Below, one piece after another: positions 18,513-26,009 of a stretch of 64,000 nucleotides of DNA (its first letter is position 1; each line of letters begins with the position of its first letter). The notes under the pieces were generated by a model. That model did not search any database. It worked only from the letters and a program-made list of their open reading frames with translations, and had not been told where the DNA came from. Source of the DNA: Williamsia faeni (GTDB lineage: Bacteria; Actinomycetota; Actinomycetes; Mycobacteriales; Mycobacteriaceae). The stretch is taken from assembly GCA_003202005.1 (NCBI GenBank), contig QJJF01000001.1, positions 341,099 to 405,098 of the forward strand, given 5' to 3'. The position numbers were made by a program, and so were the translations under genes.

Positions 18513-18559
18513 TCACGCCCGCTCCCGGCCTCGATGGCGAGTCGAATCGAACCGCCGGA

Positions 18560-19933
18560 CTACTTCACATCGTTCATGCTCTTTCCGACGTCGGCGAGGG
18601 TCATCGGGGCACCATAGTCACCGGTGTACTTGTACGGCGGGCTGTCGCAACGGTATTGACCGTTGTCGGGTCGGAAGTCGGCGTCCTCCCAGCCGTTTGA
18701 GGTCGCTTTCTGCACGTTGAAGCACGGTGATGGTGGAGCGGGCGCGGCAAGATTCTGCGGTGCCGTCAATCCACCTCCGGTCCAAGCAGTTTCAGCTTTG
18801 CCTGCGTTGTAGAGGCACGTCCGCGTCAGGTCATCACCACAACTCGCAGCTGACTTGGCGAACAACAACCACGACGATATCGCGCGGATCGCCGGCAGTG
18901 TGATGTCGGCATCGGGAGCGTACTTGGCGTACAGCGCAGTCAGATCCTTCATCGCCGGTTCCGTGCTGCTGATGGGGCTCACCCCGCCGAGGTCGACGTA
19001 GTTGTTCTGGGAGTCGGCGGAGGTACCCAACAACTCGATGAACTGTTGTCCGTACGCATTGTTGTTCGAATCGATCCAGTCGAGCTTGTAATCCATACCG
19101 CTCAGCACACTCTCGAGTTTGGCCAGCTGCTGGAACTGGCCGTAGAAGATCAGGCCCTTGACCCCCTCGTTCTTCAGGGCCTGTGCATACGGAGTCCAAT
19201 CCGAGATGCCCATCGCCGGGTACACATCGTTGTAAACGAACATCCCGCCGGCCGCCTCTGTGGCCTCGACGGCCTGCTTACCGATGGACTTGGTCAGCGG
19301 TGAATCTCCATTGATGATTCCCACCGCATTCCGAGAATCCGGATAGGCCTCATTCATCAGCCAACTCCGGAAGCCGAAGAACGGGTCATAGCCGGCAGTC
19401 GAGGCCGGCGAAGCAGCTATCTGCAAGTCGGAGCCCGTCGATGCCGGCTGCACCGTCTGCGCCACAAAGTTGGGCAACGTGCAACCGAGGCGTTCCTTGA
19501 CACCCAGCCCGTCCAAACCACTACCACCACCGACCAGCGCGAAATCCTCACGGCACGCGGCGATCATCTGTTGACGCGTTTCCATCAGCTTCGCATCGCG
19601 GGTGTTCGCGACAATCTTGCGCCCGTTGATGCCGCCGAGTTCGTTGCACCATGAGGTGAAGACCTTCGCCGCATCGATGAACTCCGAGTTCTTGTTGAAC
19701 CCCACATCAGAGAACACACCGACCCGGACCTCGCCATCCGTAACCCCTTGCGTAGGAGATCCTTTCGCATCACCCGCCTGACAGACGTCGGTCAGGTCGC
19801 CAAAAGAACTCGAGGCTGATTCCGCCGATGTCGAGCCGCCGCCACCTTCGTCGCCACCTCCTCCGCGGTCACTACAGCCGGCAACAACCAGCACGATCGC
19901 CGTCAGAGCGATGAGCAAACGTTGTGGTTTCAA
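18560..19933 (-). CDS. Periplasmic-binding lipoprotein (Leu/Ile/Val-type ABC binding fold)
   Basis: A lipoprotein of about 457 aa: basic start LKPQR, hydrophobic core, lipobox VVAGC, then a Gly/Ser-rich linker. The mature part resembles type-1 periplasmic binding proteins (DGEVRVGVFSDVGF, later DFALVGGGSGLDG, VKGLIFYGQF). TTG 19933 has GAGGGG upstream; GTG 19972 would add 13 residues with no ribosome site. No permease or ATPase gene is nearby, so it is an orphan receptor. It is divergent from the TetR gene, and a TetR-type palindrome lies between them, suggesting control by that repressor and a role in recognising the substrate or inducer of the oxidative operon. Confidence 0.8.
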   Translation of the reverse strand: MKPQRLLIALTAIVLVVAGCSDRGGGGDEGGGGSTSAESASSSFGDLTDVCQAGDAKGSPTQGVTDGEVRVGVFSDVGFNKNSEFIDAAKVFTSWCNELGGINGRKIVANTRDAKLMETRQQMIAACREDFALVGGGSGLDGLGVKERLGCTLPNFVAQTVQPASTGSDLQIAASPASTAGYDPFFGFRSWLMNEAYPDSRNAVGIINGDSPLTKSIGKQAVEATEAAGGMFVYNDVYPAMGISDWTPYAQALKNEGVKGLIFYGQFQQLAKLESVLSGMDYKLDWIDSNNNAYGQQFIELLGTSADSQNNYVDLGGVSPISSTEPAMKDLTALYAKYAPDADITLPAIRAISSWLLFAKSAASCGDDLTRTCLYNAGKAETAWTGGGLTAPQNLAAPAPPSPCFNVQKATSNGWEDADFRPDNGQYRCDSPPYKYTGDYGAPMTLADVGKSMNDVK

Positions 19934-20132
19934 GTTCCTGCCCCTCTTTTCGTGGCCTCCGCCCGACATCACGGGACGGGGATATCGCTATTCTTGGCCA
20001 GTTCTCATGCGAATAGCGCAGTCTCACAAAGCGACTCCGTTTGGTCGTCGCATGAGCACCCGAAGGCACGCGGTCCACCAATCCAACGATGTGACATACG
20101 CAATTCGCGGCGCGCTGTGTGATCTCGCTTAC

Positions 20133-20148
20133 TGTACAAGTTTGTACA
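20133..20148. promoter_or_regulatory. TetR operator copy 1, lipoprotein/TetR intergenic region
   Basis: TGTACAAGTTTGTACA is an inverted repeat with TGTACA half-sites 4 bp apart (7-2-7 when the flanking A/T is counted). It lies between divergent genes, 78 bp before the TetR start codon. A second TGTACA-N4-TGTACA occurs at 20957-20972 in the operon promoter. Confidence 0.8.
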
Positions 20149-20225
20149 TAAAGATCAAGGGTGTACCCGAAATCGACGCCAACGTGCGCAATCGAACGAT
20201 GGCTGCCATGTGCAAAGATGGGCGG

Positions 20226-20837
20226 ATGGCCGAACGGTGGACACGTGAGCGAAGACTGGAGCACACTCGCGGACTCCTCTTGGACGCAGCGGAGGAATCG
20301 TTTGCCCGCAACGGCTTTGGAGCAACGCCCCTAGAAGAGATCGCCGAGGCCGCGGGCTACACCCGCAGTGCCATCTACTCCCACTTCGGCACCAAATCCG
20401 AGTTGTTCCTGGCCGTCATCGAACGTAGCCGGGAACGTTTCCTCGGCGGATTCACCGATCTCGTCGCCTCCCTACGAAGCCTCGATGACCTAGAACTCGA
20501 TGTTCTCGCGGATCGTTGGCGCGAACTGAGCATGCGGGAAGCCGGGCCTGATCGCGCCGCACTGGGATACGAGTTCACGTTGTTCCTACTGCGCAACCCG
20601 GAGGCGCGCGAGCGGGTCAGAGCCCAACGGGCCGAGGCCATTCGCCGGCTCGGCGAGTACATCACCAACGATGTGGCCCGCATCGGCGCCACCCTGACGA
20701 TCCCGGCCGACACATTGGCACACGTCATCATCGCCACCAATGATGCGGTCACCCTCAACTGCCACCTCGACGACGAAGACCTCTACAGCCCCTTCCTCCA
20801 GCTGATCGTGTCGAGCATCGTGCCACGCGAGGGCTGA
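20226..20837 (+). CDS. TetR family repressor, predicted regulator of the oxidative operon
   Basis: A 203-aa TetR protein. The helix-turn-helix domain (about 10-57) reads TRGLLLDAAEESFARNGF through LEEIAEAAGYTRSAIYSHFGTKSELF; the C-terminal ligand domain is helical and not assigned to a known ligand. ATG 20226 (MAERWTRERR) is the natural start; ATGs at 20199 and 20208 are in frame. Matching inverted repeats upstream of this gene and upstream of the Rieske gene make it the likely autoregulated repressor of both the divergent lipoprotein and the operon. A terminator follows the stop. Confidence 0.9.
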   Translation: MAERWTRERRLEHTRGLLLDAAEESFARNGFGATPLEEIAEAAGYTRSAIYSHFGTKSELFLAVIERSRERFLGGFTDLVASLRSLDDLELDVLADRWRELSMREAGPDRAALGYEFTLFLLRNPEARERVRAQRAEAIRRLGEYITNDVARIGATLTIPADTLAHVIIATNDAVTLNCHLDDEDLYSPFLQLIVSSIVPREG

Positions 20838-20865
20838 TCGACCGCTCGATCATGAGATCCGCCAG

Positions 20866-20899
20866 CGCCACCAACGGGCTTCCCGTCGGTGGTGTTTTT
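20866..20899 (+). terminator. Intrinsic terminator after the TetR gene
   Basis: CGCCACCAACGGG-CTT-CCCGTCGGTGGTG (11 of 13 pairs) is followed by TTTTT, 28 bp past the TetR stop. Confidence 0.85.
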
Positions 20900-20946
20900 C
20901 TATGTTTATCGCGCTGACCTGCAGAAACAACATATAAAGTACATCC

Positions 20947-20974
20947 TTGCACTTCATGTACATTGTTGTACACT
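20947..20974 (+). promoter_or_regulatory. Predicted promoter of the oxidative operon
   Basis: TTGCAC at 20947-20952 and TACACT at 20969-20974 are 16 bp apart and fit sigma-70-type -35/-10 boxes (TANNNT). The predicted start of transcription is at or near 20981, which is the A of an ATG. The TetR operator covers the spacer and part of the -10. Confidence 0.45.
20957..20972. promoter_or_regulatory. TetR operator copy 2, Rieske operon promoter
   Basis: TGTACATTGTTGTACA has the same TGTACA half-sites and 4-bp spacing as the site at 20133-20148. It overlaps the predicted -10 box, where bound repressor would block RNA polymerase. Confidence 0.8.
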
Positions 20975-20980
20975 AGTGGC

Positions 20981-21136
20981 ATGGATCACAGCCACGTCGA
21001 TCCTGGGAACAGGTCACCCCTTGTTTGGCCTCGACCACTGCCCCCGCTCCCGGTAACCAACGGCCCGCATGGTCGGCCCCGAGGGGGATCCATGGGCCGT
21101 ATCGATCCGATCCTGCCGCCTACAAAGAGAGTGTGA
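20981..21136 (+). CDS. Possible 51-aa leader ORF upstream of the Rieske gene
   Basis: ATG 20981 opens a 51-codon frame (MDHSHVDPGNRSPLVW...) ending 5 nt before the Rieske ATG. The ATG coincides with the predicted transcription start, as in leaderless mRNAs common in mycobacteria, and its position would couple termination to Rieske initiation. Codon use is not strongly actinobacterial and no homologue is recognised, so it may be chance. Confidence 0.25.
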   Translation: MDHSHVDPGNRSPLVWPRPLPPLPVTNGPHGRPRGGSMGRIDPILPPTKRV

Positions 21137-21141
21137 ACCCG

Positions 21142-22488
21142 ATGGAAACAGCACGTACCGGAGAGTGGGTCGAGGAAGCCCGAGGACTCGACGAGTATCA
21201 ACAACAAGGGTTTCCGACGCAGATCCCGAACTCCGAATACACGTCTCACGAGTTCCAACAGCTTGAGCGAGAACATATTTGGAACAAAGTCTGGCAGTTC
21301 GCCGGTCGCGAGAGCGAAGTCCCCGGTCCCGGCGACTGGAAGGAGTACAAGATCCTTGACCAGACCTACATCATCGTCCGGGGCAAGGACGGCACGATTC
21401 GCGGATTCGTGAACGCCTGCCGGCATCGCGGAAATGTGCTGTGCCAGGGCAGCGGTACTGCCAAACGCGGATTTCTCTGCCAATACCACTTGTGGTCGTA
21501 CGATCTCGAGGGGAAATTGCTCGGAATGCTACGTGAAAAGGCGCAGGGCGATCTCGACAAGGATGATCTCTCGCTGATCCCGGTGCCAGTGGACACTTTC
21601 GGCGGCTTCATATTTCTCAATCCAGACCCAGATGCGCAACCGCTGTCCGTCTATCTCGGCGAGGATGTCAACCGACTGTTGGCGCCCTATCGACTCGAGG
21701 AAATGACCACGGTCATGAATGTCCGGGAGAACATCCCATGCAACTGGAAAGTTGTGATGGATGCCTTCGAAGAGGGATACCACATCTCGGGGATCCATCC
21801 AGAGTTGCTCAATGTGATCGCGCTGGATCCGACCACCAGCAAGTTTCAGTTCTTCGACAACCACAGTGTGGCCTGCGCGCCCTTCGATGTTGCGAACTCG
21901 CTCTCCCCCGAGGACGAGATCCTGGGCATCAAGGCGCTCCCTGAGACGTTCCCGGGCACTGCTGCGGTCATGCCACGTTTTGACGAGCTGGTGAGCGAGT
22001 ACCAGACCGACGACGGACGAGTCGCGTTCCCCGACGGTGTGACCGGACGAACGATCTTGCAGCAGGCGACCCGCGACACCCTCACCGGGATGGGGCTCGA
22101 TGTCAGCGGACTGACGGATGCGCAGATGAGCGACAACCACGGCTGGGTGTTGTTCCCCAACCTCTTCATGACCATCCGCGCCGGCGAGGCGCACATCGTG
22201 ATGGCGGTGCCCGACCCTGATGGCGACCCCAACCGGTGCATCTGGCATGTGGCGAGCTTCATGTGGCTTCCAGAGGAACTGCGGGATGTGTACAAGGCCG
22301 ACCTGGTCGAGGTCGATGAGCCGGGCAGCTACAAATATTTCCTTGCGCTGCAACAGGATTACGAGCAGATGCCGCGCCAGCAGCGCGGGCTCCGCAACAC
22401 CGGGCTCAAGTATATGTCGCTGGTGAAAGAGGAAATCGTCGTCTCGCATTTCCACCATGTCCTCAACAAGCACATCGCCGGACTGTGA
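21142..22488 (+). CDS. Rieske non-haem iron oxygenase, alpha subunit type
   Basis: A 448-aa ring-hydroxylating oxygenase large subunit. The Rieske [2Fe-2S] ligands are C93-x-H95 in NACRHRGNVLC and C113-x2-H116 in LCQYHLWSY; mononuclear iron ligands H214 and H219 lie in DAFEEGYHISGIH, with the third, acidic ligand probably in LQQDYEQM. It would insert oxygen into a hydrophobic ring compound using electrons from a ferredoxin. Start ATG 21142 (METARTGEWVEEARGLDEY) fits the usual family opening; a TTG at 21025 is also in frame. First gene of a co-directional six-gene operon. No dedicated Rieske reductase is nearby. Substrate unknown. Confidence 0.9.
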   Translation: METARTGEWVEEARGLDEYQQQGFPTQIPNSEYTSHEFQQLEREHIWNKVWQFAGRESEVPGPGDWKEYKILDQTYIIVRGKDGTIRGFVNACRHRGNVLCQGSGTAKRGFLCQYHLWSYDLEGKLLGMLREKAQGDLDKDDLSLIPVPVDTFGGFIFLNPDPDAQPLSVYLGEDVNRLLAPYRLEEMTTVMNVRENIPCNWKVVMDAFEEGYHISGIHPELLNVIALDPTTSKFQFFDNHSVACAPFDVANSLSPEDEILGIKALPETFPGTAAVMPRFDELVSEYQTDDGRVAFPDGVTGRTILQQATRDTLTGMGLDVSGLTDAQMSDNHGWVLFPNLFMTIRAGEAHIVMAVPDPDGDPNRCIWHVASFMWLPEELRDVYKADLVEVDEPGSYKYFLALQQDYEQMPRQQRGLRNTGLKYMSLVKEEIVVSHFHHVLNKHIAGL

Positions 22489-22523
22489 ACTCACACCGAA
22501 ACGATCAGATGGAGAATCGACAA

Positions 22524-22997
22524 ATGTCACTCAAGCCGCTCGACGAAGTTCTCGACAACTACACCGGACTTTCGCGAAAAGCTCTGCAATACGGCCTCGT
22601 CACAAAGAGCATTGTGGAAGGGCCTGCCAAGGCGCCCGGGTTTTCGGCCGCAAGTTGGGCTCCCCTGGCAGAACTGATCGCTGTTGAAGAATTCGAGCGC
22701 ATCGGCAATTTCAAAGAGGTCATGAACTGGTCGGAGTACGTCGGATTCCTCACCGCATGGGCGAGTTCGGCAACGTGGGACTGCTCGTTCAAAAGGGTCA
22801 CCGAGAGTGGCAATACGGTATTTCTCGAACTCGAGGAGCGCAGCACCGTCGGAGACTTCAACAGCGTGGTCAATTCGGTATCGGTGTACGAATTCACCGA
22901 AGCCGGCAAGGTACGCCATGTCGACGTGTACCTGCAGATGGCCATGCCGGAGGGGGACATGTTCGGTAGCTATGAGGGAGTGACGATCTCAGGATGA
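22524..22997 (+). CDS. NTF2-like/SnoaL-fold protein 1
   Basis: A 157-aa protein, 35 bp after the Rieske gene. The middle (ELIAVEEFERIGNFKEVMNWSEYVGFLTAWASS) and the C-terminal strands (VFLELEERSTVGDFNSVVNSVSVYEF through VRHVDVYLQM) match the cone-shaped NTF2 fold used by SnoaL cyclases, ketosteroid isomerases and small subunits of Rieske oxygenases. It could be a structural beta-like partner or a separate lyase/isomerase. ATG 22524 (MSLKPLDE) with GGAG upstream is chosen; ATG 22509 is an alternative. Its stop overlaps the P450 start as ATGA. Confidence 0.7.
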   Translation: MSLKPLDEVLDNYTGLSRKALQYGLVTKSIVEGPAKAPGFSAASWAPLAELIAVEEFERIGNFKEVMNWSEYVGFLTAWASSATWDCSFKRVTESGNTVFLELEERSTVGDFNSVVNSVSVYEFTEAGKVRHVDVYLQMAMPEGDMFGSYEGVTISG

Positions 22998-24286
22998 GTG
23001 CACCAGAGAAGGTGAACGTCGACGAGGTCGACTTCTTCGTCGACAACGACGTGCTCGCCGACCCCTACGAGTACCTCGCCACGCTGCGCGGTGAATGCCC
23101 GGTCCGGCGCGAAAGCCACCATGACGTCGTGATGATCACGGGATACGATGAGGCCCTTGCGATCTACAACGATCCAGCGAAGTTCTCATCGTGTATTTCG
23201 GTGGGAGGTCCATTCCCCGGGTTCCCTGTCCCTCTCGAGGGCGACGACATCTCCGAGCTGATCGAGCAGCATCGCAGTGAACTGATCATGAATGATCAAC
23301 TGCCGACGATGGATCCACCGATGCACACCGCTCACAGAGCACTGTTGTTGCGGATGATCACGCCCAAGCGCCTGAAAGACAATGAGACATTCATGTGGCG
23401 TCTGGCCGATCAGCAGCTCGACGCGATACTGACCGGCGATCGGTGCGAGTTCAACGGCGAGTTCGCGACACCCTTTGCCATGCTGGTCATCGCCGACCTC
23501 CTCGGCGTGCCGGAGTCGTCACATGAGGAGTTCCGCACCGCGCTGTTGAGCGGCACCGATATCGGCAGTAGCAGTGGTGCGGCGATGGACCATTCACCCC
23601 TGGGATATCTCTATGCGAAGTTCGCCGAGTACATCGAGGATCGCCGGCGCACCCCGCGTGGTGACGTCCTGACGGGTGTCGCTTCGGCAACCTTTCCGGA
23701 TGGGAGTATTCCGGCGGTGTCGGACGCAGTTGCGGTGGCCGCGAATCTGTTTGCGGCCGGTCAGGAAACAACGGTTCGGCTCCTGAGTTTTGCGGTGAAA
23801 CACATCGCAGAGGACCCCGAACTCCAGGCGAGACTTCGCGCCGATCGAAGCCTGCTCCCGGCATTCATCGAGGAGACCCTTCGTTTCGAGAGTCCCGTGC
23901 GTGGCGACTTCCGGCTCTCCAAGGTCCCGGTCACAGTCGGTGATGTGGATCTGCCGGCCGGGACGACGGTGATGCTGATCAATGCCGCGCTCAATCGGGA
24001 TCCGCGAAAGTTTGCCGAACCCGATGTTTTTGACATCGATAGGCCGAACGCCAGGAGTCACGTGGCATTCGGCCGAGGTGTGCACAGCTGCCCCGGCGCG
24101 CCCCTGGCGCGAGCCGAAGCCCTGATCAGCCTGCAACTGCTCCTGGATCGAACCACTGACATCTGGATCGACGAGCAGAAGCACGGTCCGGTCGACAACC
24201 GGCGATACCAATACCTGCCGACCTTCGTCTTACGGGGGCTGACGAAGCTGCACATCGGATTCAGTTTGTCGGGGAGCGATGGGTGA
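22994..24286 (+). CDS. Cytochrome P450
   Basis: A 430-aa soluble class I P450. I-helix oxygen-binding AGQETT (residues 255-260), K-helix EETLR and haem loop FGRGVHSCPGAPLAR with Cys366 are intact. It would hydroxylate or oxidise a substrate using electrons from a ferredoxin, and the next gene encodes one. Start and stop overlap both neighbours by 4 nt, showing tight coupling. CYP family number cannot be given from the sequence alone. Its pairing with a Rieske oxygenase and SDR suggests successive oxidations of one compound, perhaps a terpenoid or steroid-like molecule, which is inference. Confidence 0.93.
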   Translation: MSAPEKVNVDEVDFFVDNDVLADPYEYLATLRGECPVRRESHHDVVMITGYDEALAIYNDPAKFSSCISVGGPFPGFPVPLEGDDISELIEQHRSELIMNDQLPTMDPPMHTAHRALLLRMITPKRLKDNETFMWRLADQQLDAILTGDRCEFNGEFATPFAMLVIADLLGVPESSHEEFRTALLSGTDIGSSSGAAMDHSPLGYLYAKFAEYIEDRRRTPRGDVLTGVASATFPDGSIPAVSDAVAVAANLFAAGQETTVRLLSFAVKHIAEDPELQARLRADRSLLPAFIEETLRFESPVRGDFRLSKVPVTVGDVDLPAGTTVMLINAALNRDPRKFAEPDVFDIDRPNARSHVAFGRGVHSCPGAPLARAEALISLQLLLDRTTDIWIDEQKHGPVDNRRYQYLPTFVLRGLTKLHIGFSLSGSDG

Positions 24287-24483
24287 ATCTGTTCGTCGAC
24301 CCCGATCGCTGCGCCGGACACGGGGCCTGCGTCGCAACCTGCCCGGCGGTATTCGGGTTCACCGACGACGGATTTGCCGAAGTGCTGGTGGCCACCGTTC
24401 CCGACGACCTCGCCGGATTTGTCGACCAATCCATCCGTCACTGCCCCGAACAGGCCATCCGCACCGCGGATCCCGCGGAATAG
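24283..24483 (+). CDS. P450-type single-cluster ferredoxin
   Basis: A 66-aa ferredoxin, MNLFVDPDRCAGHGACVATCP at the N-terminus and RHCPEQAI at the C-terminus. Cys10, Cys16 and Cys54 are the usual [3Fe-4S] ligands; the second cluster position is His13 (CAGHGAC), as in many actinobacterial P450 ferredoxins, and Cys20 is extra. GTG 24283 overlaps the P450 stop (GTGA). It should pass electrons to the P450 and possibly to the Rieske centre; a reductase must come from elsewhere in the genome. Confidence 0.93.
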   Translation: MNLFVDPDRCAGHGACVATCPAVFGFTDDGFAEVLVATVPDDLAGFVDQSIRHCPEQAIRTADPAE

Positions 24484-24525
24484 CGGCCAGTACCAACCAA
24501 TCCACTCCTGTGAGAGGACACCGTC

Positions 24526-25281
24526 ATGCCCTTTGAGAAAACAACCGCGGTTGTCACCGGTGGCGCGTCAGGACTCGGCCTGGCCATCGCCGAAGGACTG
24601 ATCGCACGTGGCACTCAGGTCGCCATCTTCGACATCCATGCCGAACAGCTCGAACTCGAGGTGAAACGATTGCGGGCGGATGGCGCAGCGGTCAACGGGT
24701 ACGTGGTCGACGTCTCCGATCGTGCACAGGTCCGAAGTGCAATGGCGCACGTGCGATTCGACTTCGGCCCGGTGCTGATCCTGATCAACAACGCCGGAAT
24801 CGAGCAGTTCGGAAAATTCGATGAGATCTCGGACGAGTTCTGGGATCGCGTCATGGCGATCAACCTCCGTGGGCCGTTCATCTGCACGCAGGAAGCATTG
24901 CCGGACATGAAGGCCGCACAGTGGGGCCGGATCGTCAACATATCGTCGTCGAGTGCGCAGGGCGGGCAGTCCCAGATGGCGGCCTACGTTAGCTCGAAGT
25001 CCGGATTGATCGGCCTCACAAAGAGTTTGGCTCTCGAGCTCGGCCGGTACGGGATCACCGTCAACACTGTTCCGCCGGGAATGGTGGTGACCCCATTGCT
25101 GGAAAGGGCGATCGCCGAGGGTCGTTTCACCGCTTCCCTTGAACACTTCGCCAAGATCACCCCGGTCAAACGAGCCGGCCGTCCCGAGGACATCGCCAAC
25201 GCGACGGTCTTCCTGTGCCAGGACGAATCCTCCTACATCACAGGGCAAGTCATCGGCGTCAACGGTGGACGCCGGACCTGA
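24526..25281 (+). CDS. Short-chain dehydrogenase/reductase
   Basis: A 251-aa classical SDR. Cofactor loop TGGASGLGLAIA, NNAG at about residue 88, catalytic Ser in VNISSSSAQGG and YVSSK for the YxxxK pair are all present; D36-type acidic residue after the second strand (FDIHAEQ) favours NAD over NADP. C-terminal GQVIGVNGG is typical. It probably oxidises an alcohol produced by the oxygenases. ATG 24526 lies 42 bp after the ferredoxin, with GAGAGGA upstream. Confidence 0.92.
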   Translation: MPFEKTTAVVTGGASGLGLAIAEGLIARGTQVAIFDIHAEQLELEVKRLRADGAAVNGYVVDVSDRAQVRSAMAHVRFDFGPVLILINNAGIEQFGKFDEISDEFWDRVMAINLRGPFICTQEALPDMKAAQWGRIVNISSSSAQGGQSQMAAYVSSKSGLIGLTKSLALELGRYGITVNTVPPGMVVTPLLERAIAEGRFTASLEHFAKITPVKRAGRPEDIANATVFLCQDESSYITGQVIGVNGGRRT

Positions 25282-25399
25282 CGGACCAATTGAACAGAAA
25301 GAGAATGAAAAGAACGCAACTGAACAGAAAGGTGATCAAACACCAGCGCGTTCAGCACCTTGTAGATGAGAGACCAAGTCCACAAAGGAGAGCACTCGC

Positions 25400-25939
25400 A
25401 TGAATCTCGAAGAACGTATTGCCCATCACCGCCAGATGGCCGAAAGCTACCGGAACGCATACCTGCGTCAAGGGGTGAAGGACGGCGAACAATACACCGA
25501 TGACGAAGGGCATGAGGCGTGGAAGTTCGCGGCCGACGCCGTGTATATGTCGCCGTACTTCACCGGCGATCAAGAGTTCCTGATGAGCGATTTCCCCACC
25601 GACACAGCTAATTCCGCGACGCTGGAAGCGAAGGTGTATTCGCTGACCTTTCCCGACTGGAAGCCAGAGAGTTTCAAATACTGGTCAGCAGGTGATGGTT
25701 TCGTGATGATGACCCGATGGCAGGGCCACACCGTCGACGGCACGGGGATGGGTTTCTACTCGTACAGCTTCGTCAACACCAATGAGGACGGCGACGTCAT
25801 CCGTTGGGAAACACACTGCAACGACGAATACAGTCGCTTTCTCGAGGTCGCGATCGGCGTGAGCGGGCCCTTCCAGGGCACCACCGAGTACCTCGATGCC
25901 CTCCACCGGCGCCTGGACAAGGCGAGCGTCACCGCCTGA
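25400..25939 (+). CDS. NTF2-like/SnoaL-fold protein 2
   Basis: A 179-aa protein that closes the operon. It has an N-terminal helix (LEERIAHHRQMAESYRNAY) and curved-sheet strands such as GFVMMTRWQGHTVDGTGMGFYSYSF and GDVIRWETHCNDEYSRF, consistent with the NTF2/SnoaL fold. It is not a close copy of the first NTF2-like protein. Ribosome site AAAGGAGAG precedes ATG 25400. The 118-bp spacer before it carries two TGAACAGAAAG direct repeats (about 25290 and 25322). Function unknown; it could isomerise, dehydrate or bind a pathway intermediate. Confidence 0.68.
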   Translation: MNLEERIAHHRQMAESYRNAYLRQGVKDGEQYTDDEGHEAWKFAADAVYMSPYFTGDQEFLMSDFPTDTANSATLEAKVYSLTFPDWKPESFKYWSAGDGFVMMTRWQGHTVDGTGMGFYSYSFVNTNEDGDVIRWETHCNDEYSRFLEVAIGVSGPFQGTTEYLDALHRRLDKASVTA

Positions 25940-25942
25940 TCA

Positions 25943-25996
25943 CACCCGCACCACCAACCGTCACCGTCTCCGTCGTGACGGTTGGTGGTGCGGGTG
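25943..25996. terminator. Two-way terminator, 22-bp perfect stem
   Basis: A perfect 22-bp inverted repeat (25943-25964 with 25975-25996, core CCACCAACCG / CGGTTGGTGG) surrounds a 10-nt loop. It lies between the convergent ends of the oxidative operon and the ligase gene and should insulate both. Confidence 0.8.
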
Positions 25997-26009
25997 CGAG
26001 GCGAGAGGA

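Follow-up and report, generated by a model that had tools for sequence, protein, structure and literature searches.

Gene content of the locus

The window, the whole 64,000-nucleotide stretch of Williamsia faeni DNA analyzed here (contig QJJF01000001.1, positions 341,099 to 405,098), contains an island of eight genes between a gene of the major facilitator superfamily (MFS) and a CoA-ligase gene. The island brings together a Rieske oxygenase, a cytochrome P450, a ferredoxin, a short-chain dehydrogenase/reductase (SDR) and two proteins of predicted NTF2 fold, designated ntfA and ntfB, with a TetR-family regulator and the binding protein (receptor) of an ATP-binding cassette (ABC) system. The features are as follows, in window coordinates.

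18513 to 26009 (7497 bp): inserted island of eight genes, between the MFS gene and the CoA-ligase gene
18560 to 19972, minus strand: ABC solute-binding protein of the branched-chain-amino-acid type (Peripla_BP_6), a lipoprotein by eye
20133 to 20148: operator-like palindrome TGTACAAGTTTGTACA, exact, between the receptor and TetR genes
20199 to 20837, plus strand: TetR-family regulator, start uncertain (20199-20226), open frame from 19911
20957 to 20972: operator-like palindrome TGTACATTGTTGTACA, exact, upstream of the Rieske gene
21142 to 22488, plus strand: Rieske non-heme iron oxygenase, 448 aa (PF00355 and PF00848)
22524 to 22997, plus strand: ntfA, protein of predicted NTF2 fold, 157 aa, over no Pfam cut-off
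22994 to 24286, plus strand: cytochrome P450, assigned to the CYP150 family (PF00067)
24283 to 24483, plus strand: single-cluster ferredoxin, 66 aa (Fer4_15), with a CxxHxxC motif
24526 to 25281, plus strand: SDR, 251 aa (adh_short)
25400 to 25939, plus strand: ntfB, second protein of predicted NTF2 fold, 179 aa, over no Pfam cut-off
25943 to 25996: perfect inverted repeat (arms 22, loop 10), terminator-like, between the convergent ntfB and ligase genes

The gene order is thus a minus-strand ABC-type binding protein followed by TetR, Rieske, ntfA, P450, ferredoxin, SDR and ntfB. The original prediction, made from the sequence of this stretch, had described the last six as one oxidative operon. 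All six reading frames are present, four of them matched by Pfam and two with predicted NTF2 folds, and the set does hold two unlike oxygenases with one ferredoxin and no reductase gene (the rest of the genome was not searched for one). As a unit, however, the six genes are too few: the island also takes in the TetR and receptor genes, and the palindrome is shared. The 4-nt overlaps that had been described are found between ntfA and the P450 gene (ATGA, 22994-22997) and between the P450 and ferredoxin genes (GTGA, 24283-24286). They do not extend to the other junctions: an overlap of the Rieske gene with ntfA would require a GTG start at 22485, and the ATG at 22524, preceded by GGAGAA, matches the starts in relatives, while gaps of 42 and 118 nt separate the ferredoxin from the SDR gene and the SDR gene from ntfB.

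The island and its empty site

The GC content drops to 59.6% in the island from 63.9% and 64.0% in the flanking 10-kb segments. The corresponding site was read in five of the eight other genomes of the genus, and in all five the MFS and CoA-ligase genes stand side by side, with ~80 to 130 bp between their stop codons. These flanks are 80 to 81% (MFS gene) and 83 to 86% (CoA-ligase gene) identical to those of the window; at one of the five sites the contig ends within the ligase gene, which gives 91% over 103 residues. The remaining three genomes, which are outside the five read at the site, have an equal distance between the ligase and phosphatase genes. No full-length match to the Rieske protein above 33% identity was found in the eight genomes, where partial matches reach 40% over ~195 residues. 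The eight genes are one inserted block. For a plasmid origin, 941 plasmid records matched the Rieske protein, none with at least 60% identity, and the best among the matches listed had 31.7% over 94%; this origin was rejected.

The MFS and CoA-ligase genes are adjacent in genomes without the island and are therefore resident neighbors, not parts of the system. Nor was any match of at least 45% to either of them found in the 48 related loci described below. The CoA ligase and the exporter, which the original prediction had linked to the operon, thus drop out of it. The receptor, linked to it in the same way, stays, supported by the palindrome and by three Rhodococcus loci. The terminator scan did not list the inverted repeat at 25943-25996, and at the empty sites of the relatives a different hairpin occupies this place.

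The Rieske oxygenase and its NTF2 neighbor

The Rieske protein has the features of the α-subunit class: both Pfam domains, the CxH...CxxH motif (C93xH95 and C113x2H116) predicted to bind the [2Fe-2S] cluster, and a putative 2-His-1-carboxylate iron site (H214, H219, and D406). The carboxylate ligand is assigned to D406 from its place. All seven residues are invariant in the 30 aligned rows (the window and 29 of 43 loci). Matches of phmmer to solved oxygenases cover the first half alone, to about residue 249. The best matches of the protein are to the glycine-betaine monooxygenase GbcA and to carnitine monooxygenase. They raise the alternative that the enzyme belongs with the demethylases or monooxygenases of the carnitine/glycine-betaine/stachydrine type, with an N-methylated compound, for example an alkaloid, as its substrate. 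Related loci also carry amidohydrolases, a creatinase-like peptidase, and a glucose-methanol-choline (GMC) enzyme nearest to choline dehydrogenase models. However, the matches span only residues 25 to 229, within the better conserved first half, the GMC and amidohydrolase families are broad and score under their curated cut-offs, and CYP150A5, a relative of the P450, acts on a terpenoid ketone. We consider this assignment improbable.

Related loci were collected by an ntfA scan with one genome per species, so that ntfA is present in all 48 by design. They come mostly from named Mycobacteriaceae or Nocardiaceae, with one Actinocorallia and some metagenome bins. A Rieske gene is present in 44 of them, ntfB in 28, TetR in 21, the ferredoxin in 15, CYP150 in 14, the SDR in 9, and the receptor in 3. 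Of the four loci without a Rieske gene (L032, L033, L040, and L076), L033 begins at a contig edge, and the contig of L040 is 4.4 kb long. The gene directly after the Rieske gene, meaning the next among the 22 protein classes searched, is an NTF2 gene in 44/44 loci (ntfA in 26 and ntfB in 18), with gaps of 11 to 78 bases between the aligned parts. A survey of 298 genomes of the order, which were not chosen by ntfA, gave the same association: the Rieske gene occurs in 13, of which 12 have a close ntfA and 11 have ntfB, and the other 285 contain no ntfB and a single ntfA (G249). Rieske and NTF2 genes occur together across many genera, and this is not chance.

In contrast to this pair, the P450 and the ferredoxin are variable partners. 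On a midpoint-rooted tree of 44 Rieske proteins (43 locus rows and the window; the filter removed none, and L070, at 54% under the 55% limit, is outside the tree yet in the locus counts), the presence of CYP150 needs seven changes. It is found on the deep branches (Actinocorallia, Nocardia, and the window) and is mostly absent from two large Mycobacterium groups (13 and 11 rows), each of which has a single exception; in L056, of the 11-row group, a 63-residue P450 match lies behind ntfA. The simplest reading would be an old Rieske-ntfA-P450 set from which the P450 was lost several times. Alternatively, two separate modules, Rieske-NTF2 and P450-ferredoxin-SDR, may be stacked under a single regulator, each acting on its own compound. 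The seven changes fit this view, as do the 30 of 44 Rieske loci without a CYP150 gene and the P450-SDR-ntfA-like sets without a Rieske gene in genome G180, but the P450 on the deep branches (given the midpoint root) and its remnant in L056 look more like an old association that was lost repeatedly. Two stacked modules are possible, with the balance somewhat against them.

Neighbors in the other clades (GMC, TauD, amidohydrolases, and luciferase-like monooxygenase) give mixed hints. In L038-L056 (Mycolicibacterium peregrinum group), the Rieske-ntfA pair mostly lacks a P450 and is flanked by an ABC transporter set, of a type guessed from the sequence, and an MFS gene; seven of these loci carry the luciferase-like monooxygenase. 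In another genome (G015 C1:5228512-5230809, covered by L083, L121, and L122), the Rieske match runs over two separate frames, and a single stop marks the adjoining ntfA match; this may be a decaying copy or a sequencing error.

NTF2-fold proteins and the β-subunit question

No Pfam or NCBIfam model matched ntfA or ntfB at E ≤ 0.001. Their predicted structures are NTF2 folds, with a predicted local distance difference test score (pLDDT) of 90.3 for ntfA and 83.4 for ntfB. The top fold matches of ntfA are of the limonene epoxide hydrolase, SnoaL, and ketosteroid isomerase types and those of ntfB of the AclR, PhzA/B, and SnoaL2 types, at 16% identity or less among the 50 matches listed for each. 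A profile comparison of ntfA with ntfB found no similarity. The row-by-row Pfam scan (E 1) covered 44 ntfA rows (the window and 43 of the 48 loci) and 28 ntfB rows (the window and 27 of the 29 listed loci). It gave SnoaL_2 below its cut-off in 13/44 and 3/28 rows, respectively, and LEH in 1/44 ntfA rows (E 0.047). Limonene-1,2-epoxide hydrolase has an NTF2 fold with an Asp-Arg-Asp triad; an Arg-x-Asp pattern was not seen in ntfA in a look by eye only.

SnoaL-type proteins and P450-ferredoxin pairs are common in natural-product clusters, and the set could be a tailoring operon of natural-product synthesis. The fold matches to SnoaL2, AclR, and PhzA/B agree with this, as do the P450-associated ferredoxins of such clusters mentioned in the available part of PMC6237146. 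On the other hand, the island contains no synthase gene, and its binding protein, together with the permease of the LIV type in three Rhodococcus loci, points to uptake. A tailoring role is therefore very unlikely.

The original prediction also proposed the first NTF2-like protein as a β-type subunit of the oxygenase. More broadly, ntfA, ntfB, or both may be such subunits, in which case the Rieske oxygenase would be a hetero-oligomer containing one or two unusual subunits of the NTF2 fold. The predicted fold of both proteins, the presence in 44/44 loci of an NTF2 gene no more than 80 bases after the Rieske gene, and the confinement of ntfB to Rieske-bearing genomes (11/11) are in favor, and an NTF2 gene behind each Rieske gene argues for partnership. 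Against it, the β-subunit family PF00866 was unmatched in all 44 ntfA and 28 ntfB rows, although the same model does detect a canonical α-β pair elsewhere in the host genome (contig C6). The comparison of both profiles with this β subunit by hhalign was negative as well, which is a weak test with such shallow alignments. By sequence, the canonical α-β ring-hydroxylating oxygenase, with a PF00866 β subunit beside α, was therefore rejected. Moreover, neither protein is singly needed: G124 and G162 have Rieske and ntfA with no ntfB in the genome, and G180 has Rieske and ntfB with no ntfA in the 17 kb read. Conversely, G249 has ntfA but not this Rieske gene, and the host has a second, solitary copy of ntfA (73% identity, GC 57%; L093 1489-1968, G000 C7:187939-188400) directly behind a tRNA-Ser gene; the 17 kb read around it (L103) contain nothing else of the set. 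G180 further contains two distant ntfA relatives (39-41%) that follow a CYP150-like P450 and an SDR, with no Rieske gene in the 15 to 16 kb read. Solitary ntfA genes suggest a role of its own for ntfA. On balance, the β-type role is conceivable, with the evidence leaning the other way. A bolder and rather doubtful version is that this Rieske clade founds a new architecture, in which α needs one of two mutually dissimilar NTF2 families outside the known β family and the one [3Fe-4S]-type ferredoxin is shared with the P450. If that were true, two chemically different oxygenases would run in series on one electron supply.

Two solitary ntfA genes (L096 8167-10246 and L076 10001-12085) lie by a flavoprotein of the 3-ketosteroid/4-oxocyclohexanecarboxylate dehydrogenase group, L096 also having an IclR gene. 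A steroid substrate was considered on this basis and rejected; the flavoprotein scores far below all its curated cut-offs, and the hint was not used.

The TetR regulator and its palindromes

A Pfam scan placed the TetR_N domain at residues 123 to 169 of the long frame. TetR orthologs of 55 to 63% identity occur at 21 of the 48 loci. Both exact palindromes of the window follow the consensus TRTACA-N4-TGTAYA. With up to two mismatches, this pattern lies upstream of the Rieske gene at 22/22 loci with TetR, the window included, and at 0/21 without it. The search reached 300 bases before the Rieske gene (304 in the window) and covered 43 upstream regions, L043 being left out with its Rieske gene at a contig edge. 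At up to one mismatch the pattern is present in 16 of the 43; base shuffling predicts 0.39 and 0.02 regions at the two thresholds, respectively. A second copy is located 19 bases away in 16 of the 22 loci (≤2 mismatches), and the one near the upstream palindrome of the window carries three mismatches. In the 5.5-Mb host genome, exactly two perfect copies exist, both in the island (20133 and 20957); from base composition, 0.15 copies would be expected in the whole genome. The presence of the palindrome tracks that of the TetR gene from locus to locus, and the palindromes are probably TetR operators. As the copy at 20133 lies between the receptor start and the probable TetR start, the receptor is tied to the putative regulon by position.

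P450, ferredoxin, and SDR

The P450 shares 218 of 417 aligned residues with the structure of CYP150A6 and scores 488 bits, against 175 bits for the next solved structure. Membership of a CYP family requires at least about 40% identity, and the sequence thus places the enzyme in CYP150. The ferredoxin motif CAGHGAC...CP fits the class CXX?XXC(X)nCP of mycobacterial P450 ferredoxins with [3Fe-4S] or [4Fe-4S] clusters (described in the accessible portion of PMC6237146); the cluster type is predicted from this motif. With 66 aa, the protein also falls within the size of this class, about 60 to 100 aa. The SDR is, among the matches listed (25 of 231), over the cut-offs of two broad SDR subfamily models only.

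The ferredoxin may serve the Rieske oxygenase as well as the P450. First, [3Fe-4S] ferredoxins serve actinobacterial ring-hydroxylating oxygenases, according to the text available from PMC2358900. Second, in 8 of the 48 loci the ferredoxin gene comes after the NTF2 genes and none of the three P450 classes searched, CYP150 included, is present. Electron-transfer genes often lie apart from oxygenase genes (same source, as far as available), which fits the missing reductase.

The receptor and transport

Receptor orthologs of 58 to 60% identity stand beside the Rieske operon, together with an LIV-type permease, in three Rhodococcus loci. In the host, contig C13 (L139 935-4500, L138 4441-7643) carries a 70% receptor paralog with an LIV-type permease, as well as a TauD-SDR-Rieske set like that found in Rhodococcus; genes for acyl-CoA dehydrogenases and thiolases surround them. 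Behind a Rieske gene there (L139 6733-7056) lies a 108-aa frame without a Pfam match. On contig C25 of the host (L140 7423-11868), a reductase with FAD, NAD, and 2Fe-2S domains, an SDR, a Rieske protein, a 125-aa frame without a Pfam match, and TauD are encoded in one row.

Comparison with known systems

The dit cluster for abietane diterpenoids of Pseudomonas abietaniphila reportedly has a Rieske oxygenase, a [3Fe-4S] ferredoxin, a P450, and an SDR in one region. By this description it differs from the island, where the CoA ligase lies outside and none of the eight genes encodes a ring-cleavage enzyme. DitA works with a [3Fe-4S] ferredoxin, as stated in the part of PMC2358900 at hand, where a [3Fe-4S] ferredoxin with a glutathione reductase (GR)-type reductase defines the type V ring-hydroxylating oxygenases. 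The island resembles type V in its actinobacterial Rieske oxygenase, predicted [3Fe-4S]-type ferredoxin, and distant or missing reductase gene. Unlike these α-β enzymes, its companions are two NTF2-fold families without a PF00866 match.

CYP150A5 of Mycobacterium marinum makes 4-hydroxy-β-ionone with the CxxHxxC ferredoxin Fdx8, as given in the available sections of PMC6237146. The window likewise has a P450 of this family (52% to CYP150A6, PDB ID: 6dcd) by a single-cluster CxxHxxC ferredoxin. The Rieske and NTF2 partners of the window operon set it apart, as the same sections mention none for the Fdx8 system. For the hydrophobic, probably cyclic compound suggested by the original prediction, the one support, by analogy, is this turnover of β-ionone. 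A polycyclic aromatic hydrocarbon substrate was rejected: cyp150 was suggested from PCR in a pyrene-degrading Mycolicibacterium (PMC10301208, in the portion available), with no direct bearing on the operon.

The predicted folds of ntfA and ntfB are like those of limonene-1,2-epoxide hydrolase, SnoaL, ketosteroid isomerase, and PhzA/B. By description, they also recall MgaD, an NTF2-family protein and proposed isomerase of syringate catabolism, a pathway that also has a Rieske demethylase (excerpt of PMC12314914). In Mycobacterium bovis, a TetR gene and a PF00355/PF00848 gene with neighboring numbers were both raised about twofold by the alkaloid isocorydine (excerpt of PMC12740009); the pair resembles the pairing in the island by description, and that excerpt names no P450 or NTF2 partner. 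No connection of the gene combination to any named pathway was found in the open-licence literature searched, in agreement with the original prediction. Each enzyme superfamily was already known; the new elements are the island, the setting in which the two NTF2 families occur, and the conserved pairing of TetR with the palindrome.

Proposed function of the island

Here, we propose that the island arrived by horizontal transfer and is a catabolic module, induced by its substrate, for one small compound, a reading to which we give a probability of roughly 55%. The receptor would catch the compound outside the membrane, and entry would be by some permease. TetR would bind both palindromes until the substrate, or a product formed early from it, releases it. 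The CYP150 enzyme would then hydroxylate the compound, the SDR would oxidize the resulting alcohol to a ketone, and the target of the Rieske oxygenase would be the activated ring or an N- or O-methyl group. For the NTF2-fold proteins we envisage a reaction on an oxidized intermediate (isomerization, hydration, or similar) or a role as companions of the Rieske enzyme. The single ferredoxin, probably of the [3Fe-4S] type and reduced by a reductase encoded elsewhere, would feed the P450 and probably also the Rieske oxygenase. TetR binding, co-transcription, and the order of the steps we infer from the gene arrangement.

Several observations weigh against this proposal. The receptor function is putative, because the island contains no ABC permease genes and the host's nearest counterpart to the Rhodococcus permease is encoded on contig C13, next to a receptor paralog of its own. 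The palindrome pattern was derived from the very upstream regions in which it was counted, and many loci are close kin, so that the 22 loci are not independent. Genome-wide at up to one mismatch, the palindrome is not commoner than its reversed control (3 versus 5), and the promoter scan gave nothing above chance (1 versus 2.1). The order of the window, with ntfB last and 118 nt behind the SDR gene, recurs in none of the other mapped loci. Finally, two of the eight loci with a ferredoxin and no CYP150 (L063 and L073) have an unlike P450, 30 to 31% identical, ~6 kb away.

Through the association described here, two protein families without a match above any Pfam cut-off acquire a firm genomic setting beside one Rieske clade. 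The CYP150 family gains a candidate pathway that comes with its regulator, probable operator, and receptor. The TetR-palindrome pair would offer a direct route to the substrate, via the compounds that release TetR, and the empty site makes deletion of the island a clean test.

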